Source: Undaria pinnatifida
Lineage: Eukaryota > Sar > Phaeophyceae > Laminariales > Alariaceae
Reading direction: 5' to 3'
Assembly (NCBI GenBank): GCA_012845835.1
Contig: JABAKD010000029.1
Coordinates: 7,998,048-8,062,047, forward strand
Length of the DNA: 64,000 bases
In this document: piece by piece, positions 15,459 to 62,980 of the stretch
How positions within the stretch are numbered: the stretch's first letter is position 1
How the letters are laid out: the number at the start of each line of letters is the position of its first letter
Program-made: the position numbers and the translations under genes
The notes under the pieces: model-generated
Database searches by the model: none
Seen by the model: the letters and a program-made list of their open reading frames with translations, nothing else
Told to the model about the DNA's origin: nothing

Positions 15459-15984
15459 TGTTCGTAGAGTTCGAGTCCGGATGCCCTGACCGCCACGCAG
15501 TCTGACGAATGCTTTTTTTTTCGTTGTATTAGAGGACAGAGAGGAGAGAAGGAGCAAAGAGCGGAGTGCCAGAGCTCTCCTCCCAAGAGCAAAATTGCAT
15601 TAAAACGCCTACGAATATGTGCGCGACTCTCTACAAGTTTTGTAGCCGTCGTGCCGTGACGATCGAAACCAACACTCTTTCTGGCTCTTTACATCAGTGA
15701 CGAGACCGATTGGGCATCCAAGACAACGAGCCAGGACCTAAAAACAGCCAACGACACAGTCCTGCAGGAGGAAACCCGGCCACCGAGTCAAACCCCGCTG
15801 TATAACTTACATCGTCTAAAACATTGCTGTAGTAACAACGGCCGCATTCAAACGATGACCATGGCCAGAAACTAATGCCAAGCAGCACCCTACCCACCCA
15901 TGCCCTTCAATGTAGCATGGGGCGGCGGCCTGACAAATATTCGTGGCATGGCTCAAACATGGTACTCATCGAATAATGCTCACA
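15459..15984 (-). mobile_element. Long terminal repeat of the inner copia fossil
   Basis: Starts TGTTCGTAGAG and ends tgctcaca on the plus strand (TG...CA), 526 bases. It is clearly homologous along its whole length to 62440-62980. Shared marks include ttagaggacagagaggaga, 'ctctacaa..tttgtagccgtc', 'ctctttacatcagtgacgag' and 'gacgatgaccatggccaga'-like stretches. A purine-rich tract (plus-strand ccccgtactcacc) adjoins it inside. No partner repeat is seen at the other end of the element. Confidence 0.75.
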
Positions 15985-44544: not shown

Positions 44545-47500
44545 TTGTTGTTGTTGCTGTTGTTGTTTTCACATTGCAGAATGGGGTTAAGGGGGGGACA
44601 TGCCTCCTTAGGAATTGTACCCACATTTTGGTGACACCGTTACTTGGAATTTCAATGCCACAAAGTTTCGCGGTGTCGGAAGGGTAATCCGCCCCCCCAC
44701 CCCCCCCCCCTTTTCAAAAGGAGGTGTCCGTCGGTCAGCTGTTTTTTGTCGCCAAAAAAAAATATGGAAGGACCGGAACGGGGGGGGGGGAGAGGGGGGG
44801 GTCCCCCCAGTCCTCCCCTCTCCCTCCATTTTTCTCTTTCTTTTATTCTTGCCAATAAAATTATTTCGTCGCGTATACCTTGCGGATGATACAGATGTGT
44901 CGTGCGGCTTCCGAGGAAGCAGAAGACGGCAGGAGGGGGTCAGGCTGGAGGTGGTTTAGGCGCGCGCATCGGCGAAGTGGTTTCCATGCCCATGCACAGG
45001 GAGAAGGTCAGCAGGGGGGATGGTGGTGGTGTTCGTGGTTGGTGGTGGTGTGGCTGTGGTGGTGGTTTGGGCATACGGGTGTGGGGTAGGTCGTACACAT
45101 CTCTGGGGGGGGGGGGGGGGGCGCTGGGGTCGTGATTGGCGTGACACCCCTCTCCTTTCCTCATTGTTATTTCGTATACACTGGAAACCCCTAAGAATTG
45201 ATTTGTTCCCCCTAGACTCGCGGACAAGGCTCGTGAAGGTGGTGTACGTTAAAACCCACCTTATGATTTTACCTCCAACTTTCCCCTTCCCCTCTTTCCC
45301 CTTGTTTGGAATGCGCTGGAAACCCCTAATGCTGTTATAGGATTTGCTTCCCCTGGACTCGCGGTCAACGTTCGTGATGGTAGAGTACGTGGAGGAGCGT
45401 CCCCCTCTCGTGGGGTCGACGGGCATGGCCAGTACCATAATTACCTTCGTCAGGAGCAGCAGCCGCCGCGGCCTCGTAGGCAAAGAGGTAATGCTGGTGG
45501 TGGTGGTGGTGGTGTGGGGCTTTGGGGGTGTTTTATGAGCGCGTGATTTGTGTCTGCGTTTTGTGTCTATGTTTGTGTTTTTAAGCGTTCGTGCATGTTC
45601 ATTGTCCTTTGGCTGAAGCACAATAAATATTTTTTTCATGACTTTTGCGTTTGTTTTTTTGTTTTGACATTTGGTGGACTGGAGTGTTCCGAAACGTCTC
45701 GGGCAAACTGCCTTCGCGACCGCATCGCGCAACACAATCGCCTCATTGTGTAAAATGCCTAAAAACATTCGTCCACTGCGTGATATTTTTCCTTTTTGAT
45801 ACCACCCCGAAACAACAAGGGGGCAAGATAAGCAGTAACAAATTATGTAACAGAGTAATCTTGATGACCGCCCAAATCTTGGAGGTATCTCCATTAGGAA
45901 TGGAAAGCGGTGCTTCGTCTCGAAAGGGATGCGTGATCAATGGTCAAATGACTTCAAGACGAGCAAAAAATGAATACACCCTCCCCCCCTTTTCCCTCAC
46001 GTTCCCCGCGTCGTTTTTTCTCCCCGCGCTGCTCGGGTTTGGTTGCGGTCATGACCCCCCCCCCCTCCCTTTTTTTTCCTTGCGTTCCTCGCGTCGCTTT
46101 TCTCCTCGCACTGCTCGGGTTTGGTGTTCGGTCATGAGCAGGCTGTTCCGAACATCGGGCCGGGAAGTTTCGGCGAGAGAAGGTAAGAAGCGTGTCACGA
46201 TAGGCGCGCCGCGTGGGGTGACGGACCTCAGAATAATCAGATGCACCATTACCGTAGCTTGCGTGGTGAGGCAGTGCTACCCCCCCCCCCCCCCCCCCTC
46301 ACCTCCCCCTCCCCCCCCCGCTGTGAAAACCCGACGTGCTCCTTCCCGGAATTGTAGGGATGTGAGGGTCTATGGTCATACGACTACGGGTATGCACAAA
46401 CGGAGTACACCCCTCCCCCCCCCCCACACACGCCCCCTCCCCCGCCCCTTTGCCCCCCATTATCGACCCCTTTTACCTTCCTCCCCCCTCCCCCCACCCC
46501 CCTCTTCTGTTTTTTCGTACGACGGCCGTCCGTCTCGCAGGGAGCTGAGCCCGCAGGAAGACTCTCCGTTTTTGGGCGAGATCAGGCCCGGCTCGGAGCA
46601 GGCGGCCATCTGCAACGGTCTCTTCCGAGCGCCTATCTTCAAGCACAATGTAATAGCTGCAGTCTTAGGGCCGCGTTAAGTGCGGTAGTCTTTAGCGCGG
46701 CACCCCAGTTGGTGCAATGTAGTCCCGCATTAGTGCGGTACCCTTTAGTGCGGGACCCCAGTTTAGTGGCATGTAGTAACTGCAGTCGTAGCCCTGCGGT
46801 ACCCTTTAGTGCGGGACCCCAGTTGTGTGCAATTTAATAACTACACCCGTAGTCCCGCATCAGTGCGGTACCCTTTAGTGCGGGAGCCCAGTTTAGTGCA
46901 ATGTAATATCTACAGTCGTGGTCCCGCAGGAGTGCTGGACCCTTTGAGTGCGGGACGCCAGTTTAGTGCAATGTAATATCTACAGTCGTAGTCCCGCAGT
47001 AGTGCGGTACCCTTTAGTGCGGGACCCCAGTCTAGTGCGATGTAATATCTACACTCGTGGTCCCGCATTAGTGCGGGACCCCAGTTTAGTGCGATATAAT
47101 ATCTACAGTCGTAGTCCAGCAGTAGTGCAGTACCCTTCCTTCGGTGCGGGACCCCAGTTTAGTGCGATGTAATAACAACTTTGAATAGTCGTAGTACCGC
47201 GTTAGTGCGCTACTCTTTTGGTGCGGGACCCCAGTTTAATGCAATATAGTAGCTACCGACTGCCGGTTGTTCGGCCCTTGGGCTGCTCGGGCTGTTGCAG
47301 TCCCGCATTAGTGCGGTGCTCTTTAGTGCAGCACCCCAGTTTAATGTAATGTATTAACGACAATCTTTTCCCCGTATTAGTGCGGTACCCCGGTTTAGTG
47401 CGGTGAAAATCGCTGGTTACGTAGTTGTGGTCCCGCGTTAGTGCGGTATTCTTTGCTGCGAGGGGGGCAGTTTAGTGCGGTGAAATTGCCTGCCTCGAGC

Positions 47501-50500
47501 TTGTCCTACAGAGCGCCGCACTCTCCGGCGATAGTTTCGTTTCCATTTAGTGCGAGGCCCCAGTATAGTGCGGTGATGTTTTTTTGTTGCGATTACTGCG
47601 CTATCCCGGCATAACTCGGGCTCCCACTTTAGTGCGGTATTGGTATTGTCATCCGTCAAGGCACGGCACTAGTGACGGACCACGACTGTATAATATATAT
47701 ATATATATATTTTTTTTTAATGATTTCAAATACGGCAGCTAGCTGTGAGTTCGATCAGTTTTACGTTCGATACGATACTCATCTTTGCAAGCTGCGTGTA
47801 CATCCGGCCGCGTTTTATTTTACGATAATCTTTGGTGATGTTATACAGCAGTGGGTACCCCGATTTAAGAGCGCCCCGTGACAAGCCGAAACATACGCTC
47901 TTAATTACGCTTTGCTCGTATCTGTAGTGGCGTATGTATAGCTTTTAGTGTGGGCGGGACATGCCGATTTGACCGCTCTCAAGTCTCGAATGCTCTTATC
48001 CTGGGCGCTCTTAAATCGGAGTACCCACTTTACTGCCCGTCAGAGCTCATATTAATAGTACAGAGGTGGTAGCTGTCGCTGGGAAACACGTGCAGCAGGG
48101 TATTAGTTGTTGTTGTTGTTACTGTCGCCAATATGTCTGCCTTGGCTGATGATTCGGAGCATCTCATGAGAGGGGCGGCGTTTGGGAGCGGGGGGGGGGG
48201 GGGGAAGGGGGGGGACCGCGAGAGCGCAAGTTCTCCGTGTCTTTCCGCCCTCCCGGTTGATCTATGCACGGTTCCCTGTTATCATCTTTTGTCTCTGATC
48301 GTTCTCCCCTCCTTCCTTCTCGCCCTTCCCCCCTCTCGCCGCCTGCTTCCCTCTCGCCACTTCTCTTACCACTTTTTTGTTTGTCTCATGTGTTGTTCCA
48401 ATTTGATTTTTGCTGCGACAGGCACCTGATTCGGACTTCCTCCTTATCCGTGAACCGTTGAGCAAGAGGGAGAAGGAGCGGCTTTCGCAGATGCACAAAC
48501 AGAAGGACAAGGGGACAAAGGTAACAAGAATTACACATTGGAGTGGTGGTGGTACATCAAATTGGTGTGGTGGTAGCAGTAGTAGTGGAAAGTTTAATAA
48601 CAGCAGCAGTAGAGGTAGCAGTGGTAGCAGTAGCAGTAGTAGTAGGCACACGTAGAAGGACGGGGGTGGCAAGGTAACAATAAGGCGGTGGTGGTAGACA
48701 TGTGGGCAGGGGGGATTGGGAGGAGGGGGCGGGGGGGGGCGCGGTGGTGCCGGTGGTGGTGAGGGGGTGGTGGTGGGGGCGGGGGGGAATGGTGGGGAGG
48801 GGGGGGGGGGGGGGGGGAATGGTAGGGGTGGTGGTGGTGGGCGTGGTGGTTGTAGTGGAGGAGGTGGTGTGGTCGGGATGGTGGTGTGGTGAGGGTGGTG
48901 GGAGTTGTGGTGGGGGTTGTGGCGGTGGTCGTGTGGTGAAGGCGACCGGAGTGGTGGTGGTTGTGGTGATGGTTGTTTGTCGCGGTTTGAGTCTGTCTCT
49001 CGCTCTTCGTGCCCCTCTGTGTCTGCAGCTCCGTTCTAACTGCTGTTCTTTTCCCTCCCTCGCTCCTTTTTTTTCCGTTTTTTTTTCAAGACAAAGTTTT
49101 TCTATGGTGGCGATAAGAGTGGCGGCGGCAGCAGTGGCGGCGGCAGCGGCACCTCCTCGGCTACGGGGTCGGGTGGCTCTAAAGCGCCTTTCAGGCTGTC
49201 GCAATTCTACGTCATCCGGCCCATGCCTGTGTAAGCACACCAAGCAGTCTCTCTCGTGTTCTCTGTCTCTCTATATCTCTCTATCGCTCTCTTTCTATTT
49301 CTCTGTCGCTCTCTTCATCTCTCTGCCTCTCTCTACCGCTCTCTATCTCTCTATGTCGCTCTCTCTATCTCTCTGTCTCTGTGCGTATCGCTTTGTCCAT
49401 CTCTCCCTTTCTCTCTTTCTCTCTGACTTCTTTTTGTGCACAGAGCTAGATTATGCGGTTGTCGGTGTCGGCACCGGGTACCAGGTACATGGTATTGTAC
49501 TTGCTCGAAAGCACCTTTCAGGCTGTATGAGGATGACGTGATCCGGCCCATGGCTGTGTGAGCGTACCAAAGCCGCCTCTTTCTCTCCCTCTGCTTCTCC
49601 CTCTTGCTATTGTTATTACAGTGTATCTGGTATCTGGTAACGTTTTGTCTTACGCTTGTCAGGCGTAGTACTATGATAGCTATTTACTGTTTATTTTTAA
49701 CACCGTTCATGGTACTTTTTCGTGTGATCTGTTCGAACCCCCCCCCCCCCCCCCCCCCCACCACCACCCTCCCTTCGGCTGAATTATTTTACCAGCGTTT
49801 TTCTGGTGGGCCAGACCGAGCCGCAGATGGAGGCGCTTGAGCCGGTCAAGCCGTCATCGAGGGCCACACACGTGAGCGGGGAGTTGCACCTTTTTATATT
49901 TATTTATTTTACAGGGGACGGTTTTAGCCCCCCCCCCCCCCCCCCCCCGGACGGTGAAACAGGACGGGGATACGATAAGAAAACAGCTTCTATGTAGAAT
50001 ATGGAAGAAGCGTAATGAGCGCCCAAATGTTGGTGGTATCTCTATTAGGAGTAGGAACGGTGCTCCGTCTCGAAAGGAATGCGTTGTCAAATGGTCAATG
50101 GTCAAATGACTCAGGCAAGCAGCAAATGAGTACGCCCCCCCCCGCCCCCCACCCTCCCCTGTTTCAACGCGTTTTCTTTTACCCGTGCAGAACTGCCAAA
50201 TTTACCCTATACAAATTTCAATTAGTTTGTCACCCAAAACGGTCATGCTGCTCTGAAAGGGTTGAGTCTATTGAGCCGGCGAAACCGCCGTTGAGGGCCA
50301 CGCACGTGAGCGGGAAGTTATTATTTTCTATTTTTTTCGTAGTGGGGGATGATAATATTTATAGTCCCCCCTCCCTCCCTCCCTCCCCTTGAACGTTGTT
50401 TTTGTTAGGCCTAATAAGCCGGTGAAACCGTCGCAAGGCCACGCGCTTGAGCAGGGAGTTAACCGCCCCCCCCCCCCCCTCCCCCCCCCCCTTGTTTCTC

Positions 50501-53500: not shown

Positions 53501-56500
53501 GGCCAGGGGTCAGGGTAGGGTCAAGGGTGAGGGTCGCGGTAGGGTTAAGGGCAAGGGTGCGGATAAAGGTGGGGGTAGGAGTAGGCTAAAGGGTAGCGGT
53601 CAGGGTAGCCGCAGGGGTAGGGTAAAGGTGAAAGGTAGGGGGTCAGGGTAGGGGCAAGGGTAAGGGTAGGGTCAGGGTAGGATTAAGGGTAAGAGTGGGG
53701 GCCAGGGTGGGTTTAAGGGTAAGGTTAGGGGCCAAGGTAGGATTAAGTGTATGGGTAAGGGCCAACGTAGGATTAAGGGCAAGGGTAGGGATAAGGGTGG
53801 GTTAGGGAAAGCTTTACAGTAGGGGTCACGGTAGCCGTAGGGCTAGGGTGGTGGTGAAGGGTAGGGGTCAGGGTGGGGGTAAGGGTAAGGGTAGGTTCAC
53901 GGTAGGATTAAGGGGAAGGGTGGGAGCCAGGGTAGGATTAAGGGTAAGGGTAAGGACCAGAGCAGGTAGGGATAAGGGTGGGGGTAGGGGGTAGGGTCTT
54001 CTGTTGTCCAAGCAAGCAATAAAATCAATCAATCGATCAATCAAGCAACCAACCGTTCGTCCAATGACTCGGTCGATCAGTGAAGTGATAGACCAACCTA
54101 TCAATCACTCAACCAGTCAAATCATTTAAGCAACCCGTCAATCTGTCGATATTTAAATCAACCTGTCAATGAAATCAATACACCTACCAATGAAATCAAC
54201 CAACCAATCGATGAAGCAGTCAATCAATCCATCCATCTATCAAAATATATTTAGCTGAAGCCAACAAACCAATTCATTTACGGATGTCATCGCCCTCTTT
54301 CTTCCTCCGTTATTCATCAGTTCCAACCATCTGACCCCCTCCTCTTGTCTCAGAACGCGAGGAGGCATTGTTTCTAAAGGAGATGGTTCGCGAGATAGAC
54401 GAGAGATGCGACGTTGAGGACGACGTGAATAACCAGCCAACCCATCAACCAACCAATCAATCAATCAACCAAGCAATCAATCAATCAAGATCAATCAATC
54501 AATCAATCAATCAAAAACTTGTACTTCCAAATCAGCCACTTCAATGTATTTTTTATTAGTGCACCGCTCTCTCGTTTTCCTTCTTTGTTTTTCCCTTCTT
54601 GACCCTACCGCTCAACCATCTGACCCCCCCCTTCCTATTCCAGGACGCGACGAGGTATCGTCTGAAGGAGATGGTTCGCGAGATCGCCGAGAGACGCGAC
54701 GTGAAGGACGACGTGGACATGCCTGTTTCGACAGACAGCCTCTGGGCTGCGAAGCCTGACCTCGACATGCAACAAGTCACGGCACAGGTAGCATTTGGTT
54801 AGAGCAGGCTACTATACGTTAAGGTCAGGGTTAGGGTTAGGGCTAGGTTAGGGGACGGGCTGAGGTAGGGTTGGATGATGGGTTGGGCTAGGGGTGGGCT
54901 AGGTTAGGCCTCTGGATGGATGTGTGTGGTCGAGCCGCCGTGCGTCAAAATTTTGCACCGGACTGTGCTATAATCGAATGTTTTGTTTGTGTGTGTTGGG
55001 TGTGTGTTGTCGACCCGCCGTGTTGTCGAAAACATGGTCCGGAGCAGGTACCATAATCGATTGTTCCAAAATGCCGTTTGGCGTGTTAAGAGGGGGAGAT
55101 GAGAAAACTTCATGAATTATGCGACATGGATAAGGGTGGTACGCTTCATATTGGCGCGAAAACGATCGCTATCCCAGGCGTTAGATAGATGATGACCACA
55201 GACGATCAAAATGGAAGGGATAGGACAAGCATTTTTTTTGTCACATACCTGGTATGGCACAATCGTGATGAGCGCCTCTATTAGAAGTAGGAATGGTGAT
55301 CCGTCTCGAAGGGGATGCGTGGTCAATGGCCAAGCGACTCAAGGCAAGCGGCAAGTTAGCACCCCCCCCCCCCCCCCCCCCCCCTCCTCTCCGCCCCCCT
55401 CCGCCGCTACCGCCGCTGCTGCTACCTTAACCAAGACGAAAAACCTCGTTCCAACGCACGAAATGAATATAAAATCAAAATGTTTGCCTCCTGGAATTTT
55501 TTATCTTGAAGGCGGCCAAGCTGTTCAGAGCCGAGGACGTCTGCGCCCTGGAGAGCATGGTGTCCGCCTGGGCCCACCTTACGGAGGTCGGGGTGGACAC
55601 GCTTACGTCGCACGATGCTGTGGCCAAGTTCCTGATGAAGATCAAGAACAGACACGACGTGCTCCTGGCACAGGTTAGTGCTGGTGTTGGTCACGCACGC
55701 CACGATTGAGGCGGTACTGTTGGGGCGAAACTGTTTTATGAAGTTTCGTGGTTCCATAAGCCAACACCGTCGGGTATGTCATTCTCGTTGTGCAATTTGA
55801 ATATGTTGTGTGTCTGGAGTATACAAAATCGTTGGAAATGTCGTTGTCGTTTTACGATTTGAACATTTGATTGTGTACCTAAGAGGGTGTACAAAATCGT
55901 TGGAATTGTCTTTTCTCGTTTTGGGATTTGAACACGTTGTGTGCCCTAGGGTATACAAAATCGTTCGAAATATCATTCTCGTTTTGCGATTTGAACGTGC
56001 TGTATACCTTAGTATACACAATCGTTCGAAATGCCATTCTCGTTTTGCAATTTGAACATGTTGTGTACCTAGGAGGGTAGATAATATCGTTGGAAGTGTC
56101 TTTCTCGTTTCGCAATTTGAACATGTTGTACCTAGGGTATACAAAATCGTCGGAAATGTCATTGTCGTCATTTTCAATTTGAATATTTTGTACACCTAGG
56201 CTATGTGGGTTTGGTCATCGAGTTTCACGTTTAGTTTTTTTTTGCTCAAAATAAATTATATGGGTGAGGCATAGAGCCTCAGAAAATAAATGGCACACGT
56301 TTACCGTAGCCTGTGTCTGATGTTGTGGTTGTAGGGCTGCGGTTAGGGTTCGGTTGGGGTTGGGGTTGGTTGAGGTTGGAGTTAGGTTTCGGGTATATAT
56401 AGGTAGTGTTCAGGTTAGGGCTGGGGTTAGGGTTTGGGTCTGGGTTAGGGTTAGGTTGGGGTGTAGGATTAGTGTTAGGGCAGGGGTTAGGGTTGGGGTT

Positions 56501-59500
56501 GGGGTTGGGTTACTTTAGGGTTTGGGTTAGGGTTGGGGTTAGGTGAGGGTATAGGGCTAGTGGTCGGGTTATGGCTGGAGTTAGAGTATGGGTCTGGGTT
56601 AGGGTTAGGTTAGGGTGTAGGATTAGTGTAAGGGCAGGGGTTAGGGTTGGGGTTGGGTTACTCTAGGGTTTGGGTTAGGGTTGGGATTAGGTGAGGGTAT
56701 AGGGCTAGTGGTCGGGTCATGGCTGGGGTTAGAGTTTGGGGTTGGGTTAGGGTTAGGTTAGGGCGTAGGATTAGTGTTGGGGCAAGGGTTAGGGTTGGGT
56801 TTAGGGTTGGGTTACTTTAGGGTTTGGGTTAGGGTTGGGGTTAGGTGAGGGTATAGGGCTAGTGGTCGGGTTATGGTTGGGGTTAGAGTTTGGGGTTGGT
56901 TTAAGGTTAGGGTTAGGTTAGCGTGTAGGATTAGTGTTGGGGCAGGGGCTAGGGTTGGGGATGGGGTTACTTTAAGTACATGGCTAGTGTCAGGGTTAGG
57001 GTTGGAGTTTGGGTTAGGGTTAGGGCTAGGTTAGGGTGTAGGGTTAGTGTTCGGGTGGTTAGGGCTGGGGTTGGGGTTGGGGTTGACGTTAGGGTTGGGG
57101 TTAGGGTTGGGATTAGGGCTGAGGTTAGGGTTGGGGTTAGGGTATGGTGTAGTGTAGAGCGTAGGGTGCAGCGTAGCCTTTGCATGAGGCCGTCGCTAAG
57201 TTCCCGATGAAAGACCAAGAACAGACACGACGTGCTGCTTGTGGAGGTTGCTGCTCGTTCCTTTTTTTTTTTCTCTCTGCTTTTGGTTTGTTTTTTGCTT
57301 CTCCTTTTCTGCTTTTTCGTGTTTTTCGTCAAGGCGCTTTGTTGTTGTCGTATATACCTACGCCTTCCTTCTTTTTTTTTTTGACATTTCTTTCGGTCTT
57401 GCTCTTTCGTTTTCGTGCTTTTGTTATAATTTTCTGGCATCAGTTGTCGTTTCGTCGTCTCCCACTTTTGTTTTATTGTGTTGTGTTGTGTTGTGTTGTG
57501 TTGTGTTGTGTTGTGTTGTGTTGTGTTTATTTGTTTGTTTGTTTGTTTGTTTTGATTTGTTTCGTTGTCTTGTTTTTTGTTTTTGGTCACGCAGGTGAAG
57601 GGGATACGCGGTCCTCGTACTACAGTAGTAATAGTTGTTTTGTGCTGTTCGTTTTTGTCTTCCGTCCGGTCGCTGTGTGCTTGCGACAATTTTTTTCTTA
57701 GGGTTCGGTGTTTCGTTTTCGTTTTTTCATCTCACACCTTTTGTTTTGTTGTTGCTTTGCTTTGTCATGTTTTTGTCCACCCCCCCCCCCCTCTCTCTTT
57801 TGTTTTTTGACGCACAGGTGAAGGAGGTACGATCAGCATCGGCGGCGCTGAGCAAGCAGAAGAGTGCACTCACCAGGGCTGCGCGGGCGAGGGGGCAGCC
57901 AACCCCTAATGAGGGTGGCCTGGCAAGGCGGTTGGTGTGCATGGAGAAGCTCTCCGAGGTATGCCAAATGACGTGGCTTGGGTACACCAGCATGCACCAA
58001 TCAGATATATACCTGTCAAATATGCACCAATCATATGTATACCTGTCAAATATGCACCAATCAAATGTGTACCTGTCAGTAAATAAACTTACTAACTAAA
58101 AACGAGCGGCCGGTGTATCGCGCAGCTTGCGGAGATGAGTATCGACCCTAAATTTGTCGAACTCACCGGTGACGTTGTTGTAATAGTTTTGCACAGTATG
58201 CAACAATTAAGTGCATACCTGTCAAATATGCACGAGTCAAATGTGTAGCTGTCAAGAATGCAGCAATCATCGGCATGGAGAAAGTCTCGGAGCTATGATA
58301 CGTAACGAGGAATTGACAGGCCTTTGAATTGTCTACTCTTGAGCACCGGCCACCATATTTTTGTAGTTGGCGTTGTTCAACCAAAAACACGCACCAATCA
58401 AAAGGTATACCAGTCTAATACTGGTATGCGCTTATCAAGGAAGCACCGATCAGGCATGCACCAATGGAACGTACACGGATAAAACGTGCACCAATCAACT
58501 GCATGGAGAAGCTCTCGGGGGTATGGAACGTAACATTATGGTGTTTTGCGTTTTACCTACTTCTGGTCGGGTAGGAGTGATACGATAGAGGTGACCTTTT
58601 TCGGCCAACGTATTTACTGGATGGCGAGTCCCTTAACCCATTTACTTCCAGCCCCCTAAAATTCTCCCAGTCTAACTCAAAGTGTGCTGTCCCCATGTCG
58701 GGGCTAAGGCGCTAAGATGAAAGGGGTAAGGCCTTTTTTTTTGTTTGGGGAAACTTGCGTTTTTTGCGATACCCGTGCCAATCCACAACGGGTTTGTTCC
58801 ATCAAATTGCACTTTCAGTTTGGTCAAAATCCGTTTTTCGGGTGTGAGGTATAGCTGTCATTAAGTGAGGGAGCCCCATAAACAAAAACGAGGCACCTCG
58901 ACCGTAGTACGCCTGTAAGGAAAACACGCGTGGTACGATAGAGGTGAGCCACTTTTTTTTTCTAATGCTATTACCCCTCACTTTAGGAGCTTAAGACCTC
59001 TCTTCCCGAAAAACTGATTTGGAGAAAAGAAGAAAAAAATGTGCTACCGGACGAAAAAAACACCATGACCTCAGGTACAAGACGAGAGTCATGCAAGCAA
59101 AAGGAGATGGACGACATTCCGACGATTTGGGGTTAAGGAGCATGCCGCCCGTCATTCAGAAATCATTTTAGCCAAAAAGAGGTATACCTTAATGCGTCTA
59201 TCGTAGCACGCATCTAAGGAAAATATGTAGTAATAGTATTGAAACCGCCGAAGGTCACAGTCCAAGGCCAACCCAACCCAATCCACGAAAAATCAGCGAC
59301 CAAAACAGGTTCGAAATACGCTTTCGCCATTTTTTTTTTTTTTTTTTGTTCAACCGAAGTTTCTCATGGGTTGGTTCGCCCTGGGTTGGTTATGATATGC
59401 GTCGGCTTCAATGCTGTCCAGCCGGCCGCCCCTGTGGTCTAGTGGTGGAACCTCGGACGCTACTAAGGTTGGACTCAGGGTTTTTCAAAACTCGGTATGG

Positions 59501-61995
59501 AGATTCTAATTTTCTAGAGACACCAACTGCCGAGAGCGCTTTATAGCGTGGGTAAGCATAGTACGACGCTAGTCGGCGAGGGAAGAAAGTGCTGATTTAG
59601 TGTAATCCATGCAGCCTGCGTTGCTTCCAACGGCCGATGCTGTACACGTCAGTTTTTACTGGTCAATTTTTTCTCTCTGAAGTCCGAAAAAAACGTCGAT
59701 TATTGTTTTGTGCAAAAAATTTGCTTGTTTTTTGTAATAAAATGAAAAACGTCAGCTGTGAATACGACCGATTGAATGGTTGAAACTCAACTTTGCAAAC
59801 TGCGTGGTACATTAGATCTGTGTTTCATTTATGATATAGTGTTTGTGAGTTAAAACCTGGTTGTTAATACACAGCTTCACGATTTTTACGGAAGGTCGTT
59901 CGCGCGTGTTCTCCATGAAGGATTATAGGTCGGGGACTCCTCTGCACGTTGTCAGGGTCAACATGACAATTTTCTCTATTTTGTAAAAGCTAGGCGGCCG
60001 TGGGATTGGTGCCAAACGGGTTAGCGGTGCACCGTTTTTTTTTCTGAGGCTTTACACTTGATGAGCTTAACGCCTCTCCAAAAAAAAAGACTACTCGGGA
60101 GAAAAATAAAACTGCTACCAGATGAATATTCCAATGTAACTATTTATAGGCACTTGCACACGAACAAAAGTGAATAAAAAGAAGGAAAAAACAACGAAAT
60201 TTCGACGATTTTCAAAAAAAAAAAAAATCGAAACGAAACGAAATTCAGACGATCGATTATGGGTTAAGGTGTCCCGTCAGTCAGAAACCGTTCAGGGAAA
60301 AAAAAGGGCCACCTCTATTTTCGCACCGAGCGTCTTTTACTTCTCGGAGATAAGTTTTTGCCGTAGAATGAAAAAATAAAGAGCTCCTAAGGTGAGGAAG
60401 GCATATCGCCCCGGTGGCGTATCAGGTTATCCTCGAGCCTGGTATAGGTCAGTTTCGTGAGTTCGCACCCCGCCGAGTGCATACTCGTATAAATTCGTTG
60501 GGACTTTTTCTTGTGGACAAATTGACTTGCGGAAAGCGCGAGAGCGTGAGTTAGCAACACTCGGTGAACAATCGACGAGCAGTGGGATTGCTGAGCCCTA
60601 TGCGCGATAAAAATTGAAGGCAAGAACCGGGGAGGAGAAGGGATGACACCTGTGACCACGGCTTGTCCAGAAGCTGGAAAGTGAAAGTGTGCAAAAAAAA
60701 AAACAGAAAACGCATGTTGCGCCTGTGCCGCAGCGTGCGTGTCTTGTGGACTGTTTTATCTTTTCTTTTTTTTTGTGTGCCGTGTTTGGCGTCGTTGTCT
60801 TTTTCTTTTTTGGTGTGGGCCGTTTTTTGGCGGCGTTGGGTAACTTCGTGCCCCGCGTGTTTTTTGTTTTCGTTTTTTCGTTTTTGTTTTCGTTCTCGTT
60901 TTCGTTTTTTTTTGGCTTATTTTTTTGTTCCTGTCATTTCGAACAGACTGGAACCGAACCCGCTATTGCTATCACGCCCGTCCGTTGTTACATGCGCATA
61001 CGCGTAACCCCCCCATCCATCCCGTATCAGGTGTTGGGCGCTCAGCTAACGGAATTGAAGCGCGTCCGAGCCGTGGCGCAGTACATGCACAAGGAGCTGC
61101 AGATGGTGCCTTGGACCCTCACCTCCAACTACCTCAAACGCCACGGCCTAGGAGCTACACAGGTTTGAGAAAAACTGTAAAACGGTGGCACCCCTCTCCC
61201 CCGCCCCCCTCTGTCATGCCTCCGATAATAGATGAACTCCAATTACCTCAAGCGCCAAGGTCTATTGCGCTAAACAGTTTCGGGTCAAGGTAGTATAAGC
61301 ACTGCCCCCTCCCCACCCCTCCCTTGCCTCCAAAAATCAATGGCACCCTTTCCTGGAGAACTCCGTGTCGGCGCTTGCTCGTCAAATTTATTAGTGAACG
61401 AGACAGTGGTTGTTGTGCTGCATGCTGACGCTGTTGTTGTTGTTATTGTGGTGGTGGTTTAGCTGCGCTCAATCACCTTGTGCTCGGCCATCTTGCGTAT
61501 GCCGAGCCATCTTGATTGGGCAGGGTGCGAGCCTCCAGGATGAAAGATCCTTCGGGCTGTCTCATTCAACAATTGCGCTCGGTTACCAAACATCTTGCGC
61601 TCTCCCTTGTTTTTGGTTCAACCATACTTCAAACCGTGCTGTAGTCAACGGTACTGCGCTCAACCATCTTGCACTCGACCATGGTGCGCTCAACCGTCTT
61701 TACATGCCCAACTAGTTCATGCTCAACCATATTTTCCCTCAGACCATTTCTCTGTGGTGAACCATCTTCCCTCAAACCACTTATCTGCGACCGTCTGGTG
61801 ATCAACCATGTTGGAGCAGGGCGCCAGCCTCCTGATGCTGAGCGGGATGGGCGACCCTTCGGGTTGCGGCGAGGGATTCAGCTTTTTGACTCGGCCGGCG
61901 GAGCAGGCGAAAGCGTCGGCGTCGCTGACTACGAGCGAGAAGATCGTGGCCGAGAGGAGCGTCAAGAAGGTCACCGGTACCAACGGGGATCTGAG
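34702..61995 (+). CDS. TAF1: TAF1, TFIID subunit 1 (22 exons in window, 3' end outside)
   Basis: TAF1 is the scaffold of TFIID, which places TBP at Pol II promoters in the nucleus. Every splice joint below is GT...AG with agreeing phase, except one frame change inside exon 3. Recognised in order: an AVDF-x-D acidic segment (human AVDYSDINE), a Ser/Gly/Ala-rich expansion, and a QGEWE and a GGWEAEVLLDE segment (human WEDDIIWD / WEDNIIWDA). Then comes the DUF3591 core: LHRPRMP (FHRP), VEYVEERPPL ([10 protein letters not shown]), DSPFLG...LFRAPIF, SDFLLIR, VVFLVGQTEP, VCALESM, LQMVPWTLTSNYL, GDPSGCGEGFSF and KKVTGTNGDLR (KKTVTGTDADLR). About 1,440 codons are present. From memory human TAF1 reaches the same point near residue 1,100, so the N-terminus is expanded. 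The later C-terminal region (and bromodomains where present) is not in the window. Assignment of the family is secure; single exon edges could shift. Confidence 0.9.
35091..35336. repeat. (TTG)n tract in a TAF1 intron
   Basis: Degenerate GTT/GCT triplets over about 245 bases, filling most of the intron 35082-35535. Confidence 0.85.
35536..35625 (+). CDS. TAF1: TAF1 exon, AVDF segment
   Basis: Acceptor tttttgtgcag, donor gtgaga. Thirty codons: VDAVDFHDPGEEESGNYDL... . It corresponds to the conserved acidic AVDY-x-D segment of TAF1. Confidence 0.85.
35626..36172. other. TAF1 intron
   Basis: Contains four tandem copies of 'tcggttggtctt' near 35642-35690, a G-run at 35711-35729 and a pyrimidine-rich 3' part. 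No gene. Confidence 0.6.
36173..37646 (+). CDS. TAF1: TAF1 exon, long low-complexity plus WE segment
   Basis: Acceptor atctgcag, donor gtgagt. The 5' part is read in the frame VAKDQALEFYASGDGPRL then Arg/Ser-rich. The 3' part is read one frame on: EEEIYWARTPPGVF, acidic Ser/Asp runs, long Gly/Ala/Lys-rich stretches, then AEFMPVSQGEWEAAVCLGD, matching the W-E-x-D-I-I-W region. The change of frame falls at the G10 run near 36595-36606 and equals one extra base. A homopolymer length error or a very small intron are both possible. The rest of the chain needs the second frame at the donor. Confidence 0.7.
38053..39078. mobile_element. Pogo-like TIR element P1, about 1.03 kb, in a TAF1 intron
   Basis: Flanked by TA on both sides. 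The left end CAGTCGTCCCCGCTTTAAAG and the right end (reverse) CAGTCGACCCCGCTTTAAAG are inverted repeats. The match runs through 'gacac'. TA target and CAGT start fit Tc1/mariner-pogo type transposons. Further copies of the end motif lie inside (near 38092 and 39008). I see no transposase, so it is non-autonomous. Confidence 0.75.
39222..39465 (+). CDS. TAF1: TAF1 exon, charged linker
   Basis: Acceptor ttttttttccag. The first base completes an Arg codon, then DGKEAGPAKPRSPSMASAMS and Lys/Gly/Glu-rich residues follow to GGTE. Donor gtagat, phase 0 out. Linker sequence is poorly conserved in the family, so support is from frame and splice sites. Confidence 0.65.
39466..40381. other. TAF1 intron
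   Basis: Contains G-rich tracts, an (ATG/GAT)n run at about 40091-40145 and C-rich tracts before the acceptor. No gene. Confidence 0.6.
40382..40495 (+). CDS. TAF1: TAF1 exon
   Basis: Acceptor ttttacatcag, donor gtactc. 38 codons, phase 0 in and out: NGTPASSALVVAAASKPGAF ... WVDPPSVLNPQ. Confidence 0.65.
40843..41007 (+). CDS. TAF1: TAF1 exon, WEAEVLLDE segment
   Basis: Acceptor tctgcttcag, donor gtgagt. 55 codons including GGWEAEVLLDESQ, RRPRLPVYLDDPDMLF. It lines up with human [20 protein letters not shown] and LTLDPNDENL. Confidence 0.85.
41298..41404 (+). CDS. TAF1: TAF1 exon
   Basis: Acceptor taggcgacag, donor gtgggt, phase 0 in and 2 out: MAAEKQKRLQSAAMKTGYTI ... ASRAESHIR. An upstream acceptor (ctctcag at 41262) would give a frame with a stop, so the later one is chosen. 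Alignment to the LSNDEYY-equivalent region is weak. Confidence 0.6.
41513..41600. repeat. G-run in a TAF1 intron
   Basis: More than fifty G with two interruptions, followed by G-rich sequence. Length in the assembly is unreliable. Confidence 0.8.
42163..42211 (+). CDS. TAF1: TAF1 micro-exon, 49 bases
   Basis: Acceptor ctaaactcag, donor gtatgt. It restores the phase (2 in, 0 out) between its neighbours: AVIVRPPPHASPAEDK. It corresponds to the PAVELRQPFFPTH region. Confidence 0.7.
42491..42692. repeat. (CCCAA)n array in a TAF1 intron
   Basis: About 32 pure CCCAA units (42531-42668) flanked by CCCCA units. Repetitive Gly/Trp/Val ORFs here are artefacts. Confidence 0.9.
43259..43601. mobile_element. 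Pogo-like TIR element P3
   Basis: TA-flanked. The left end is CAGTG, then a C-run, then ggtaaggcggtggt. The right end reversed is CAGTAGGGGTGG, then ttctccaataaggcggta. The inside has a near-duplication: gtggtgtggtagagcaa and 'gcgccaagcgatt' / 'gtgccaagcgatt' each occur twice, about 160 bases apart. Confidence 0.65.
43720..44032. repeat. Related repeat with 'accggcactatt' ends
   Basis: Two direct copies of about 110 bases (43738-43815, 43828-43905) carry 'gccagcccaatataccggca' and 'tatacagggtatcggcacta' stretches. They are followed by gtgccaagcgattt, which is shared with P3 and P4. The right border is 'ccggcactgtattgggaccc' to ACTG. Confidence 0.55.
44368..44456 (+). CDS. TAF1: TAF1 exon, HRP segment
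   Basis: Acceptor ttgttccgcag, donor gtgagt. VLIAPPKNWEEIRNLHRPRM then PLNTLLPSQ. It contains the conserved (L/F)HRP of the DUF3591 start. Confidence 0.85.
44484..44572. repeat. (TTG/TGC)n run in a TAF1 intron
   Basis: GTTGCT-type triplets over about 90 bases. Confidence 0.8.
44895..45006 (+). CDS. TAF1: TAF1 exon, basic/Gly segment
   Basis: Acceptor gatgatacag, donor gtcagc. CVVRLPRKQKTAGGGQAGGG ... VVSMPMHREK. Equivalent to the KKK...ERQASGGGEMFFMRTPQ region. Confidence 0.75.
45181..45249 (+). pseudogene. Degenerate copy of the next exon's 5' edge
   Basis: About 70 bases repeat 45316-45390 with changes: ctggaaacccctaa, then gatttgttccccctagactc, then gtgaaggtggtgtacgt. It contains an equivalent of the DLLPLDSR start but not the rest of the exon. 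Confidence 0.75.
45341..45487 (+). CDS. TAF1: TAF1 exon, VEYVEERPPL segment
   Basis: Acceptor ctgttatag, donor gtaatg, 49 codons, phase 0 in and out. DLLPLDSRSTFVMVEYVEER then PPLVGSTGMASTIITFV. Matches human [20 protein letters not shown] / LMMQVGMATKI and is among the best diagnostic exons. Confidence 0.9.
45805..45990 (+). repeat. Intron repeat R1, copy 1
   Basis: Shares 'gaccgcccaaatcttggagg', tatctccattaggaatgg, 'tcgtctcgaaagggatgcgt' and 'tcaatggtcaaatgact' with copies at 49950, 50766 and 55255. It ends at a poly-C tract. Confidence 0.7.
46142..46182 (+). CDS. TAF1: TAF1 micro-exon, 41 bases
   Basis: Acceptor gtcatgagcag, donor gtaaga, phase 0 in and 2 out: AVPNIGPGSFGER. It supplies the phase needed by the next exon and fits the position of the GE-x-x segment before SPFLG. 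Confidence 0.75.
46322..46415 (+). repeat. R2 end segment in a TAF1 intron
   Basis: 'gtgaaaacccgacgtgctcc' to the 'cggagtacacccc' stretch, matching 25356-25450, beside C-runs. Confidence 0.65.
46541..46649 (+). CDS. TAF1: TAF1 exon, SPFLG / LFRAPIF segment
   Basis: Acceptor cgtctcgcag, donor gtaata. ELSPQEDSPFLGEIRPGSEQ then AAICNGLFRAPIFKHN. Human has TSPFLGSLHPGQ and ENNLFRAPIYLHK. Confidence 0.95.
46660..47688. repeat. Array of pogo-like ends, about 14 units of 60-70 bases
   Basis: Unit: cagtcgtagtcccgcattag, tgcggtaccctttagtgcgg, gaccccagtttagtgcaatg, taatatcta. Each unit holds the inverted pair gtcccgca / tgcgggac. The array begins CAGTCTTAGGGCCGCG. Its end, reversed, begins CAGTCGTGGTCCGTC next to TA, so the outer edges look like the inverted ends of the same element type as P1-P4. 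Units decay to the right. Confidence 0.75.
47736..47800. repeat. Hairpin-family arm
   Basis: agctgtgagttcgatcagtt ... gatactcatctttgcaagct. Confidence 0.6.
47846..48035. mobile_element. Pogo-like TIR element P2, 190 bases
   Basis: The left end is CAGCAGTGGGTACCCCGATT then taagagcgc. The right end reversed is CAGTAAAGTGGGTACTCCGA then tttaagagcgc. Preceded by TA. No coding capacity. Confidence 0.7.
48422..48520 (+). CDS. TAF1: TAF1 exon, DFLLIR segment
   Basis: Acceptor tgctgcgacag, donor gtaaca, 33 codons. APDSDFLLIREPLSKREKER then LSQMHKQKDKGTK. Human reads METDFLIIRTRQG at this point. Confidence 0.9.
48521..49090. other. TAF1 intron, G-rich
   Basis: AGT/GGT triplet and G-rich tracts at about 48560-48960, then a pyrimidine tract before the acceptor. 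No gene. Confidence 0.6.
49091..49230 (+). CDS. TAF1: TAF1 exon, FYVIRPM segment
   Basis: Acceptor ttttttcaag, donor gtaagc. TKFFYGGDKSGGGSSGGGSG, a Gly/Ser insert, then APFRLSQFYVIRPMPV. The end matches the YYIREL.. strand before VVGQ. The Gly/Ser insert is specific to this gene as far as I can tell. Confidence 0.8.
49477..49590 (+). pseudogene. Degenerate copy of the preceding exon's 3' edge
   Basis: 'aaagcacctttcaggctgta', then gtgatccggcccatg, then gctgtgtgagcgtaccaa repeats 49168-49245 (aaagcgcctttcaggctgtc ... ccggcccatgcctgtgtaag) about 330 bases downstream, across the donor site. Confidence 0.8.
49796..49871 (+). CDS. TAF1: TAF1 exon, VVFLVGQTEP segment
   Basis: Acceptor tattttaccag, donor gtgagc. 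VFLVGQTEPQMEALEPVKPS then SRATH. Human reads [20 protein letters not shown] then ANTH. Confidence 0.95.
49950..50140 (+). repeat. Intron repeat R1, copy 2
   Basis: 'gagcgcccaaatgttggtgg', 'tatctctattaggagtagga', 'ctccgtctcgaaaggaatgc', ending at a C-tract. Confidence 0.7.
50259..50460 (+). pseudogene. Two degenerate copies of the VGQTEP exon's 3' edge
   Basis: 50259-50320 (gagccggcgaaaccgccg, ttgagggccacgcacgtgag) and 50405-50460 (gccggtgaaaccgtcgcaag, gccacgcgcttgagcaggga) resemble 49838-49885 (gagccggtcaagccgtcatc, gagggccacacacgtgagcg). Both include the donor position. Confidence 0.8.
50655..50745 (+). repeat. R2 end segment
   Basis: ctgcctggtcggctaaaacc, cgacgtgccctgatattata, then gggatgcgagggtct; followed by a C-tract. 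Confidence 0.6.
50766..50845 (+). repeat. Intron repeat R1, copy 3 (short)
   Basis: ccccgtctcgacagggatgc, gtggtcaatgg, followed by a C-tract. Confidence 0.6.
50927..51055 (+). CDS. TAF1: TAF1 exon
   Basis: Acceptor cggtgatag, donor gtaagg, 43 codons, phase 0 in and out. LNIVTFLAKRLFDTTKVAQA then FKKVLDEAKFLSLPRAK. It is in the place of human IRDFLQVFIYRLF...IRMEDIKKAFP. Confidence 0.85.
51403..51580. repeat. Partial MITE, CTACGATAGAGGTG family
   Basis: Starts ctgctacgataaagaggtgt with ttttctgaacg and ggctccttaaccc as in the family interior. The right half is unclear. Confidence 0.5.
51690..51990 (+). mobile_element. Hairpin family with extension, reverse of 14168-14450
   Basis: Arm 'gtcgaaactcatctttgcga' followed by 'cattaaggatataggtcggc', 'gactccccttggaactacag', a 'cagggtgatgtta' stretch, then ctgacagctgtggaaggaaa. 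This is the same order as 14168-14420 in reverse. Confidence 0.7.
52070..52358 (-). repeat. tRNA-derived SINE, copy B
   Basis: Nearly identical in layout to copy A. The tail side carries a (CTTTT)n run at 52046-52069. It lies in the intron 51056-54643. Confidence 0.8.
52567..52783. mobile_element. Pogo-like TIR element P4
   Basis: TA on both sides. The left end is CAGCGCTATATCGGGGTTCC then cccagtaaggcgg. The right end reversed is CAGCAGCAGGGCTCCCGTAA then caaggcgc. The interior is shared with P3 (gtggtgtgcgagagcaatgt, cgtgccaag). Confidence 0.65.
52930..53236 (+). repeat. tRNA-derived SINE, copy C
   Basis: Forward copy starting 'ggtcgccccggtggcgtatc', with B-box-like gagttcgagtcccc and an A-rich tail at 53224-53236. 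Confidence 0.85.
53500..53995. repeat. Degenerate (AGGGTA)n-type satellite in a TAF1 intron
   Basis: Irregular units such as agggtagggtcaagggt and aagggtaaggg over about 500 bases. Telomere-like in composition but not in period. Confidence 0.7.
54325..54432 (+). pseudogene. Degenerate upstream copy of the next exon's 5' edge
   Basis: Matches 54618-54722 including the polypyrimidine tract and AG: 'ccatctgaccccc', cagaacgcgaggaggca, 'aaggagatggttcgcgagat' and gacgttgaggacgacgt. A two-base length difference takes the copy out of the TAF1 frame, and the spliced frame reaches a stop, so it is not a usable alternative exon. Confidence 0.85.
54644..54787 (+). CDS. TAF1: TAF1 exon, SIRKRLK-equivalent
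   Basis: Acceptor cctattccag, donor gtagca, 48 codons. DATRYRLKEMVREIAERRDV, then STDSLWAAKPDLDMQQVTAQ. Human: SESSIRKRLKLCADFKRTG... WWVLK. The Trp and the basic stretch line up. Confidence 0.85.
54822..54912. repeat. TTAGGG-like tract
   Basis: gtcagggttagggttagggc, then looser units. Confidence 0.6.
55255..55385 (+). repeat. Intron repeat R1, copy 4
   Basis: 'gatgagcgcctctattagaa', 'gatccgtctcgaaggggatg', 'cgtggtcaatggccaagcga'; followed by a 22-base C-run. Confidence 0.7.
55512..55673 (+). CDS. TAF1: TAF1 exon, VCALESM segment
   Basis: Acceptor tatcttgaag, donor gttagt, 54 codons. AAKLFRAEDVCALESMVSAW, then AHLTEVGVDTL ... FLMKIKNRHDVLLAQ. Equivalent to human [20 protein letters not shown]. 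Confidence 0.9.
55760..56205. repeat. Tandem array, about 65-75-base period, in a TAF1 intron
   Basis: Six or so units of tatacaaaatcgttggaaat, gtcattctcgttttgcgatt, tgaacatgttgtgtacctag. Divergence between neighbours is moderate. Confidence 0.85.
56335..57170. repeat. Long degenerate TTAGGG / TTGGGG satellite
   Basis: More than 800 bases of ggttagggttggggtt-type units with higher-order repeats of about 120-130 bases ('aggattagtgttagggcagg', 'agggtttgggttagg', 'gagggtatagggctagtgg' recur at 56465, 56617, 56767 and 56928). Confidence 0.85.
57180..57255 (+). pseudogene. Degenerate copy of the VCALESM exon's 3' edge
   Basis: 'gcatgaggccgtcgctaagt', 'tcccgatgaaagaccaagaa', 'cagacacgacgtgctgcttg' repeats 55611-55685 (gcacgatgctgtggccaagt, tcctgatgaagatcaagaac, agacacgacgtgctcctggc), 1.57 kb downstream. 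Confidence 0.85.
57476..57526. repeat. (GTGTT)n run
   Basis: About ten gtgtt units followed by tttgt units. Confidence 0.9.
57575..57620 (+). pseudogene. Degenerate upstream copy of the next exon's 5' edge
   Basis: ttttggtcacgcaggtgaag, gggatacgcggt resembles 57805-57835 (tttttgacgcacaggtgaag, gaggtacgatca), including the acceptor AG. Confidence 0.65.
57818..57958 (+). CDS. TAF1: TAF1 exon
   Basis: Acceptor ttgacgcacag, donor gtatgc, 47 codons. VKEVRSASAALSKQKSALTR, then LARRLVCMEKLSE. Frame and splice sites agree with both neighbours; sequence alignment to animal TAF1 is weak here. Confidence 0.75.
57985..58090. repeat. Tandem 28-base repeat after the exon
   Basis: atgcaccaatcagatatata and cctgtcaaat units, with further scattered copies at 58195-58265 and 58386-58500. 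Confidence 0.8.
58121..58190. repeat. Hairpin-family arm
   Basis: gcagcttgcggagatgagta, tcgaccctaaatttgtcgaa, ctcaccggtgacgtt; preceded by cggccggtgtatcgc as at 14380 and 33400. Confidence 0.7.
58260..58535 (+). pseudogene. Two degenerate copies of the preceding exon's 3' edge
   Basis: 58263-58305 (gcatggagaaagtctcggag, ctatgatacgtaacg) and 58495-58535 (gcatggagaagctctcgggg, gtatggaacgtaac) resemble 57939-57972 (gcatggagaagctctccgag, gtatgccaaatgac). Both are embedded in the atgcaccaatca repeats, so they spread with that unit. Confidence 0.75.
58577..58910. mobile_element. MITE, CTACGATAGAGGTG family
   Basis: Starts 'gatacgatagaggtgacctt' and ends gaggcacctcgaccgtagta. Interior gagtcccttaacccattta and gaggtatagctgtcattaag. 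Confidence 0.6.
58930..59209. mobile_element. MITE, CTACGATAGAGGTG family
   Basis: Left gtggtacgatagaggtgagc, right 'ggtataccttaatgcgtcta' then tcgtagcac. Interior (reverse of 28230) 'gacgatttggggttaaggag' and 'cattcagaaatcat'. It lies 20 bases from the previous copy. Confidence 0.7.
59428..59490 (+). other. tRNA-like fragment
   Basis: 'tgtggtctagtggtggaacc' resembles a tRNA A-box region and 'aaggttggactcaggg' loosely a B box. I cannot fold it as a full tRNA, so it may be a SINE head or chance. Confidence 0.25.
59747..59985. repeat. Hairpin-family arm with extension
   Basis: gtcagctgtgaatacgaccg ... 'tgaaactcaactttgcaaac', then 'ttataggtcggggactcc' and 'gtcagggtcaaca', as in the 51690 copy. 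Confidence 0.6.
60026..60328. mobile_element. MITE, CTACGATAGAGGTG family, diverged
   Basis: Interior features 'gagcttaacgcctctccaaa', 'ggagaaaaataaaactgcta', 'gacgatcgattatgggttaa', gtcccgtcagtcagaaaccg; ends ggtgcaccg / 'gggccacctctattttcgca'. Confidence 0.55.
60405..60702 (+). repeat. tRNA-derived SINE, copy D
   Basis: Forward, starting 'cgccccggtggcgtatcagg' and ending 'ccagaagctggaaagtgaaa' followed by an A-run (60693-60703). It lies in the intron before the LQMVPW exon. Confidence 0.85.
61031..61162 (+). CDS. TAF1: TAF1 exon, LQMVPWTLTSNYL segment
   Basis: Acceptor cccgtatcag, donor gtttga, 44 codons. VLGAQLTELKRVRAVAQYMH, then KELQMVPWTLTSNYLKRHGL. Human: [20 protein letters not shown]. 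Confidence 0.9.
61226..61275 (+). pseudogene. Degenerate copy of the LQMVPW exon's 3' edge
   Basis: aactccaattacctcaagcg, ccaaggtctattgcgctaaa resembles 61124-61165 (acctccaactacctcaaacg, ccacggcctaggagctacac), about 100 bases downstream. Confidence 0.75.
61466..61800. repeat. Minisatellite of 'caaccatcttgcgctcgac' type
   Basis: About a dozen irregular units of roughly 19 bases fill the intron up to the next acceptor. Confidence 0.75.
61508..61560 (+). pseudogene. Degenerate upstream copy of the GDPSGCGEGF exon start
   Basis: gggcagggtgcgagcctcca, ggatgaaagatccttcgggc resembles 61813-61866 (ggagcagggcgccagcctcc, tgatgctgagcgggatgggc, gacccttcgggttgc) with an internal loss. It includes the acceptor AG. 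Confidence 0.7.
61820..61995 (+). CDS. TAF1: TAF1 exon, GDPSGCGEGF / VTGTNGDLR segment
   Basis: Acceptor gttggagcag, donor gtaata, phase 0 in and 2 out. GASLLMLSGMGDPSGCGEGF then SFLTRPAEQ ... SVKKVTGTNGDLR. Human: [20 protein letters not shown] and KKTVTGTDADLRRL. These are the clearest family signatures in the window. The next exon (RLSLKNA-equivalent) is not found before 62440. Confidence 0.95.
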
Positions 61996-62439
61996 GTAAT
62001 ATTCGTAGAAAAGGACTTTTTGGGGGGCCTCGATCACTTTAACAAACACAAAAAACACGACAAATGCAAAAAATATTGCTAAACGTATGTACGATTTCAC
62101 AAGTGCTTGACACGGACACGTATATTTCTTTTTACGGTAGCACCGAAATTATTTTCCCACGAACGGTTGCATTGGGTTGACGACGTCGCCGCAATGTGCT
62201 ATGGTATCCCCTCTCTCCCGTTGCGGCGTTATGATTTATAGCAGTTGTCGCCTTTATAGCTATCAGGCGTTATCTATCGCCTGCACGAGCGAACGGCTCC
62301 GCCCCCCCCCCTTCTGTCAGACGGTATCCGGCGGCCAGCAAACTACTTATACGAGAGATGGACATCCAAGCAACGCTCGTGTGAGTGATGATTGCAGAGC
62401 TAGAGGCACCCCTGCGTATCAGTAGTTGGTCCCTAGGTT
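61996..62439. other. TAF1 intron, unassigned
   Basis: No exon continuing the DLR|R segment was found. Mixed sequence with an 'aaaacacgacaaa' A-rich stretch. Confidence 0.5.
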
Positions 62440-62980
62440 TGTTCGTAGAGTCCAAGCCCGGATGCCCTGACCGCCCCGCGGCCTGATAAGTTTATTTATA
62501 GACGTTGTATTAGAGGACAGAGAGGAGAGGCGGAGCAGAGAGCGGAGTGCTCGAACTCTCCTCCCGACAGCGTGTCAAAGATTCCGTAAAAACGCCTGCG
62601 AAGATATAAGCAACTCTCTACAACTTTTGTAGCCGTCGCTGCTCTGACGATCCAAACTAACACCCTCCCTGACTCTTTACATCAGTGACGAGACCGAATG
62701 GGCATCCAAGACAACGAGCTAGGACCTAAGAACAGCCAGCGACAGTCCCGCAGGAGGAAAGCCGGCCACCGGGTCGAACCCCCTCGTGTAACTCATATAT
62801 TCCGAACCATTGCAATTGTAACTATGGCCGCATCCAAAACGATGACCATGGCCAGAAACTAAAATGCCAAGTAGAGTCCTACTCACCCCGTGCCCCTCAA
62901 AGTAGCGTGGGGTGGCGGCCTGGCAAAAATTATTCGTGGCATGGCTCAAACACGGTGCCCATCGAAAAAATGCTTTCACA
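62440..62980 (-). mobile_element. Long terminal repeat of a third copia fossil
   Basis: TGTTCGTAGAG ... tgctttcaca (TG...CA), 541 bases, same family as 15459-15984. A purine tract (reverse of ccccttactcacc) adjoins it. Confidence 0.8.

Follow-up and report, generated by a model that had tools for sequence, protein, structure and literature searches.

Broken local copies of exon edges in the introns of TAF1 and unrelated genes of Undaria pinnatifida

Results

The TAF1 locus and its repeats

The window, a stretch of 64,000 nucleotides from Undaria pinnatifida (GCA_012845835.1, contig JABAKD010000029.1), carries TAF1 in the region of 45–62 kb. The 554-residue join of the exon peptides, a query that included one peptide from ~40.8 kb, matched the Pfam family DUF3591 (E = 7.1e-48) and also the TAF1 chains in the PDB. 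The gene model consists of 12 exons from 45341 to 61996 with GT–AG edges, which were refined by eye, and a continuous reading frame. The positions of the exons and of the copies described below are shown in Table 1. A six-frame Pfam search of the window at 1–15 kb and 17–32 kb detected retroelement domains and a sub-threshold match named CDC45, and nothing else. Since these scanned parts offered no other usable gene, the test was continued at loci elsewhere in the genome. Rfam and tRNA scans of the sequence gave no match.

Several other repeats are present in the window. The stretches 15459–16944 and 62440–63943 are 83% alike and, judged by eye, presumably copia-like; Pfam RVT_2 and Pol_BBD domains were located on the minus strand within 17–32 kb. 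Long degenerate telomere-like arrays (GGGTAA/GGTTAG) occupy 53507–53955 and 56332–57167 inside TAF1 introns, and pentanucleotide arrays are found at 42490–42689 (CAACC, 94% matches) and 2013–2425 (CCGAA, 81%). A repeat family of ~80–130 bp with a poly-C end (45864–45987, 50015–50143, 50770–50846, and 55276–55374) precedes the acceptors of exons 2, 7, and 9 by ~80–150 nt and has one member in the middle of intron 6; another family, whose end is similar, occurs at 25354, 29237, 29369, 46323, and 50659. A dispersed element of ~305 bp is present at 10388–10690 (−), 52056–52358 (−), 52932–53236 (+), and 60406–60703 (+). It has tRNA-like A and B boxes, which give the orientation, and an A-rich tail; the exact consensus pattern of the boxes is seen in two of the four copies. 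From these features the element is likely a SINE. A genome search returned 4559 first-look candidates, and the 40 that were scored match at 91–100%; the table of the assembly paper lists only 326 SINE pieces (PMC7058681).

Table 1 Exons of the TAF1 model and copies of their edges (positions of the window).
Feature	Position	Strand	Basis and remarks
Exon 1 of the model (source)	45341..45487	+	frame and splice sites; Pfam DUF3591 for the joined exons
Exon 2	46139..46182	+	exon model
Exon 3	46541..46649	+	exon model; last 4 bases and donor start the minisatellite array
Exon 4	48422..48520	+	exon model
Exon 5	49091..49230	+	exon model
Exon 6	49796..49871	+	exon model
Exon 8	54644..54787	+	exon model
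Exon 9	55512..55673	+	exon model
Exon 10	57818..57958	+	exon model
Exon 11	61031..61162	+	exon model
Exon 12	61820..61996	+	exon model; start 61817 or 61820
Exon 1 5' edge, broken upstream copy	45167..45249	+	source 45302–45390; acceptor AG lost; self-BLAST, edge test
Exon 2 intron tail, copy	45979..46054	+	source 46059–46137, period ~80; self-BLAST
~69-bp minisatellite from exon 3 edge	46646..47486	+	repeat scan, self-BLAST
Exon 4 3' edge, weak downstream copy	48646..48683	+	score 26; GT kept
Exon 5 3' edge, downstream copy	49503..49583	+	source 49176–49255; self-BLAST, edge test, genome search
Exon 6 3' edge, first downstream copy	50271..50337	+	source 49837–49905; self-BLAST, edge test
Exon 6 3' edge, weak second downstream copy	50400..50465	+	GT lost; ends approximate
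Exon 8 5' edge, upstream copy	54324..54427	+	source 54613–54715; self-BLAST, edge test, genome search
Exon 9 3' edge, downstream copy	57182..57258	+	source 55610–55685; 1.57 kb away; self-BLAST, edge test, genome search
Exon 10 5' edge, upstream copy	57580..57608	+	score 28 unmasked; AG kept
Exon 10 3' edge, first downstream copy	58273..58298	+	score 30; GT lost
Exon 10 3' edge, second downstream copy	58500..58525	+	score 42; GT kept
Exon 11 3' edge, downstream copy	61237..61280	+	GT lost
Exon 12 5' edge, weak upstream copy	61516..61570	+	score 25; right end approximate

Copies of exon edges in TAF1 introns

The 24 edges of the 12 exons were each searched with one 75-nt query at a cut-off score of ≥25. 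A same-strand copy was found on the predicted side of the edge's own intron at 11 of the 24 edges, namely the 5' edges of exons 1, 8, 10, and 12 and the 3' edges of exons 3, 4, 5, 6, 9, 10, and 11. Neither the wrong side of the own intron (0/24) nor the inverted orientation in the own intron (0/24) gave a copy, and comparisons with non-adjacent introns gave one same-strand match in 264 and five inverted ones in 264 (0/264 at ≥35). At each of the 11 positive edges, none of 300 shuffles equaled the observed score. Exons 1, 2, 5, 6, 8, and 9 also had direct pairs at their edges in self-BLAST. These results confirm the broken exon-edge copies that a sequence-only reading of this DNA had reported in the TAF1 introns. 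Its estimate of at least nine copies at seven exons was correct as to their presence and too low in number: nine exons (1, 4, 5, 6, 8, 9, 10, 11, and 12) together have ~12 copies, and to these are added an array from the exon 3 donor and an 80-bp repeat of the exon 2 intron tail. The array, which has a ~69-bp unit and begins 4 bases inside exon 3, repeats the exon 3 donor: another nine donor-like sites, each matching at ≥12 of 17 positions, were recognized at 46769–47347. The weak members by score are the 3' edges of exon 4 (26) and exon 3 (28) and the 5' edges of exon 12 (25) and exon 10 (28); in a masked iterated count, the exon 10 5' copy, the exon 12 5' copy, and the second exon 6 copy scored below 26, and they are seen in other alignments.

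A search of the 511-Mb genome with the spliced TAF1 sequence, which passes over simple repeats and in which eight candidates were scored, returned the 12 exons and three of the local copies; elsewhere, a single 36-nt match to a Gly/Ser repeat was obtained. For the 5' edge of exon 8, the upstream copy was the sole other match found in the genome. Transposed or retroposed copies were therefore rejected for this gene, as its pieces are found only locally save for the 36-nt low-complexity match.

Recurrence and polarity in other genes

Gene sets were collected genome-wide for the CCT/Cpn60 family (57 exon matches), kinesin motors (130), and dynein heavy chain (25). All of the CCT and dynein matches were used, together with 19 of the 130 kinesin matches, which came from five of ~46 clusters picked for their many matches; one kinesin match with internal stops was dropped. 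TAF1, ten CCT regions, and five kinesin stretches formed 16 gene regions with 88 exons and 176 exon sides. Low-complexity sequences and arrays were masked, and copies with a score of ≥35 were designated as strong, a cut-off set after the first scores had been seen.

Strong same-strand copies were present at 24 of the 176 exon sides, and all 24 derive from the part of the exon near the edge, with none far and none inverted. When TAF1 was left out, 17 of 152 sides had strong copies, every one near. At a lax score of 26 the counts were 31 near, 2 far, and 7 inverted exon sides, and nine settings of flank and padding gave 21–25 near, 0 far, and 0 inverted. Dynein had copies at two of 50 sides at score 35, both near, and 2 near, 2 far, and 1 inverted at score 26. 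At least one strong copy occurred in 8 of the 16 regions; one of the 24, in CCT region B, consists nearly entirely of intron tail, save 4% of the match. The pattern is thus shared beyond TAF1 and is no peculiarity of that gene. Random intron windows lacked such polarity (129 near and 97 far among 226; Fisher p = 7e-6 versus exon sides). The copying of 5' edges upstream and of 3' edges downstream, noticed earlier in TAF1, held for 24 of 24 strong copies and for 26 of 26 with dynein. The near-edge-only rule confirmed here is sharper than that earlier one and extends to unrelated genes.

The polarity is informative about origin. A tandem duplication that crosses an exon edge leaves an intact exon only at the outer end of the repeat, so that either the first part of the exon recurs upstream or the last part recurs downstream. 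A pasted fragment need not respect this rule. With the junctions outside TAF1 placed by eye, 23 of the 24 strong copies reached the junction within a base and the remaining one stopped 8 nt short; none was exon-internal. In looser alignments, 28 of 29 copies reached it within 3 nt. The apparent spacing of the copies ranges from 94 to 2187 nt. Some edges have serial copies (seven at one CCT edge and four at two others), which indicates that repeated events or array growth occur. In particular, an exon of CCT region C whose end lies at about position 6945 of the joined stretch is followed within ~700 nt by seven serial copies of its edge. Whole-exon copies, which free placement of the units would produce, numbered 0 of 24 versus 12 of 226 in intron windows; the difference is not significant (p = 0.61), and their absence was rejected as proof of selection.

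Decay of the copies

The 29 copies are identical to their sources at 1256 of 1592 positions in the exon parts and 640 of 898 in the aligned intron parts. By codon position, the mismatches are 94/525, 98/536, and 144/531. Mismatch is thus ~18% at positions 1 and 2, higher at position 3, and highest in the intron, as explained by a free copy beside a constrained exon: positions 1 and 2 differ through changes in the copy alone, at position 3 the exon changes too, and in the intron both change. The third-position excess could instead reflect some coding constraint on the copies. Of the 29 copies, 21 retain the splice dinucleotide, which is near the ~18 expected by chance at ~79% identity. Seventeen of the 29 have a frameshift, 21 have a frameshift, a stop, or a lost splice site, and every strong copy is truncated; the eight that combine a splice site, an open frame, and no stop are themselves partial. 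In this light the copies look as though they drift neutrally. Across 26 copies, the mismatch at codon positions 1 and 2 covers a range of 0.03 to 0.41, and this continuous spread looks like a continuing process and no single burst.

Exon edges compared with intron background

Intron windows, which overlap, were taken from 15 of the 16 regions, one span being too short. Local same-strand copies were visible at 226 of 1800 window sides (12.6%) versus 24 of 176 exon sides (13.6%), and at 210 of 1680 versus 17 of 152 without TAF1; because both members of an intron pair diverge, which hampers detection, and because the windows overlap, this comparison covers visible copies only. The expectation of the sequence-only reading that exon edges would be more duplicated than random intron windows was not borne out, and equal rates were the outcome it had itself named as speaking against it. 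Exon edges as hotspots were rejected on these rates.

Within gene spans, 88 pairs were direct and 15 inverted, compared with 89 and 99 between genes at one cut-off; at E = 1e-4, the within-span numbers were 115 and 19. Recognizable local direct repeats make up 10.8% (masked) to 17.1% (unmasked) of the intron bases in 15 gene spans, and inverted local repeats 3.5% and 3.9%, respectively. The direct coverage is a lower bound and no proof of a main growth route; hence the earlier proposal that local tandem duplication is a main route of intron growth here was not demonstrated. The direct bias is weak in TAF1 introns (16 same-strand and 13 inverted among 120 window sides; 17.0% direct versus 10.3% inverted of masked intron bases), probably because dispersed repeats there face both ways.

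Contiguity of the pairs

For spacings of ≤165 nt, the unit was matched over ≥70% of its length in 10 of 13 pair classes, or in 11 when counting the row at window position 43716, which was scored 0 by an interval artefact and contains a contiguous pair. Among the 24 pair classes spaced by >165 nt, the match extended over ≥70% of the unit in only 2, even at identities of 83–91%, and the others have an unmatched spacer. The rest of the unit exceeded every cross control in 9 of 28 edge copies. An increase of contiguity with identity was looked for in the pairs and none was seen, so the idea that contiguity rises with youth was rejected. Many of the long pairs therefore call for insertions or deletions at a later time, or for a mechanism other than tandem duplication, and a strictly tandem origin of the edge copies is favored and not proven.

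Discussion

A model of local direct duplication

The same-strand, near-edge copies that reach the junction, their neutral-looking decay and spread of divergence, and their recurrence in unrelated genes lead us to a reading to which we assign a probability of roughly 0.7: short local direct duplications have left truncated edge copies that decay in lengthened introns. In this kelp, direct duplications, each unit measuring from some tens up to a few hundred bases, would arise throughout the introns. Where a unit crosses an exon edge, the exon would survive complete on one side, while the intron side would receive a truncated exon end together with its splice site. The intron would thereby lengthen and the truncated copy drift neutrally, while some edge units may multiply into several copies or a minisatellite. 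Such events could stem from error-prone repair that is unselected in introns and tolerated at edges only if an intact exon and splice site survive; by analogy with the proposal for rice, the route may be patch repair of nearby nicks or breaks. The edge tests and the divergence of the copies support the earlier suggestion of local same-direction duplication in which the exon stays intact and the copy decays. We infer that each event was strictly tandem, and likewise how much the introns grew: with uniform events, the proportion of edges that were crossed would equal the fraction of sequence added, at least ~14% (24/176), an estimate that spans only the time in which copies remain recognizable.

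Weighing of other explanations

Local patch copying, in which template-switching break repair pastes a piece of 40–110 nt some 100–500 nt away and leaves the interval unduplicated, agrees with the observation that most longer-spaced pairs are short homologous patches whose spacer is unmatched even when they are young. However, it explains neither the near-half restriction of 24 of 24 strong copies nor the junction-reaching of nearly all copies, nor the strong inverted copies being found at 0 of 176 sides, and we regard it as rather unlikely. Exon edges might also be special initiation sites, where splicing- or R-loop-linked breaks seed arrays as at exon 3. The serial copies at several edges and the start of the 69-bp array 4 bases inside exon 3 fit this idea, but intron windows are duplicated as often as edges though their copies are harder to detect, which makes it very unlikely.

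That the copies are functional, as alternative exons or decoy splice sites under selection, would be in line with the retention of 21 of 29 splice dinucleotides and the smaller change at codon positions 1 and 2 than at 3. This retention is nevertheless near chance, all strong copies are truncated, and most copies have a frameshift, a stop, or a lost splice site; we consider such a function highly improbable. Chance similarity, low complexity, or assembly error is scarcely credible. The region is indeed rich in simple repeats and the weakest edges score only 25–28, but the shuffle, cross-intron, inverted, and wrong-side controls and the polarity of the strong set speak against chance, and the copies differ from their exons by 3–41% at codon positions 1 and 2, unlike assembly duplicates. 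Local direct duplication remains the reading that we prefer.

Relation to known duplication processes

Tandem duplication of exon sequence is known from a further system; here, the copies adjoin their own exon and no new intron is inferred. In a rice study, which cites Vaughn and Bennetzen (2014), insertions stem most often from tandem duplication, and this is ascribed to patch repair (PMC7971508). Most of the rice insertions are direct tandem duplications and not made by transposable elements, and the kelp copies probably share this. The rice events are recent ones between varieties and the tandem share drops beyond 125 bp, whereas those of the kelp are decayed fossils, with the spacing given above, that are read at exon edges. 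A potato RdRp gene is described as having gained an intron by tandem duplication across an intron–exon boundary (PMC4974935). There too the duplication crosses an exon edge and duplicates the splice signals, but the potato gene gained a new intron, while here an old intron lengthens and the copy decays. As judged from the sequences, the copies examined appear to imply no new spliced intron within a former exon, since they sit in introns beside an intact exon. Fill-in by Pol alpha-primase at breaks is reported to give small tandem duplications (PMC8355091) and is a candidate route to the direct duplications seen here; it was demonstrated at CRISPR-made breaks in cultured cells, and for the kelp it is a candidate only. 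The duplication process thus belongs to a known type. Among the matches listed from titles and abstract beginnings of open-licence papers, none treated exon edges as a dated growth record or described broken copies of them as recording how introns grow.

Implications for intron growth in kelps

Mean intron sizes of 1,057 bp in Saccharina and 703 bp in Ectocarpus have been given (PMC4421812). Intron lengthening is usually told via transposable elements, since both members of an old local duplication erode. At an exon edge it is mainly one member that erodes, so that the record reaches deeper and the presumably derived copy can be told from its source; the intact neighboring exon is a built-in reference for how introns lengthen. 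It is possible, though we hold it doubtful, that recurrent local duplication, including edge-seeded arrays, is the main route of intron lengthening in kelps and that the edges are a self-dating record of it. If this were true, the rate, age, and direction of intron growth would be readable from one genome. If the pattern is genome-wide, a single annotated genome would suffice to estimate the rate of tandem duplication and to compare lineages. Finally, the duplicated splice sites are raw material that could give rise to cryptic splicing or to new introns.
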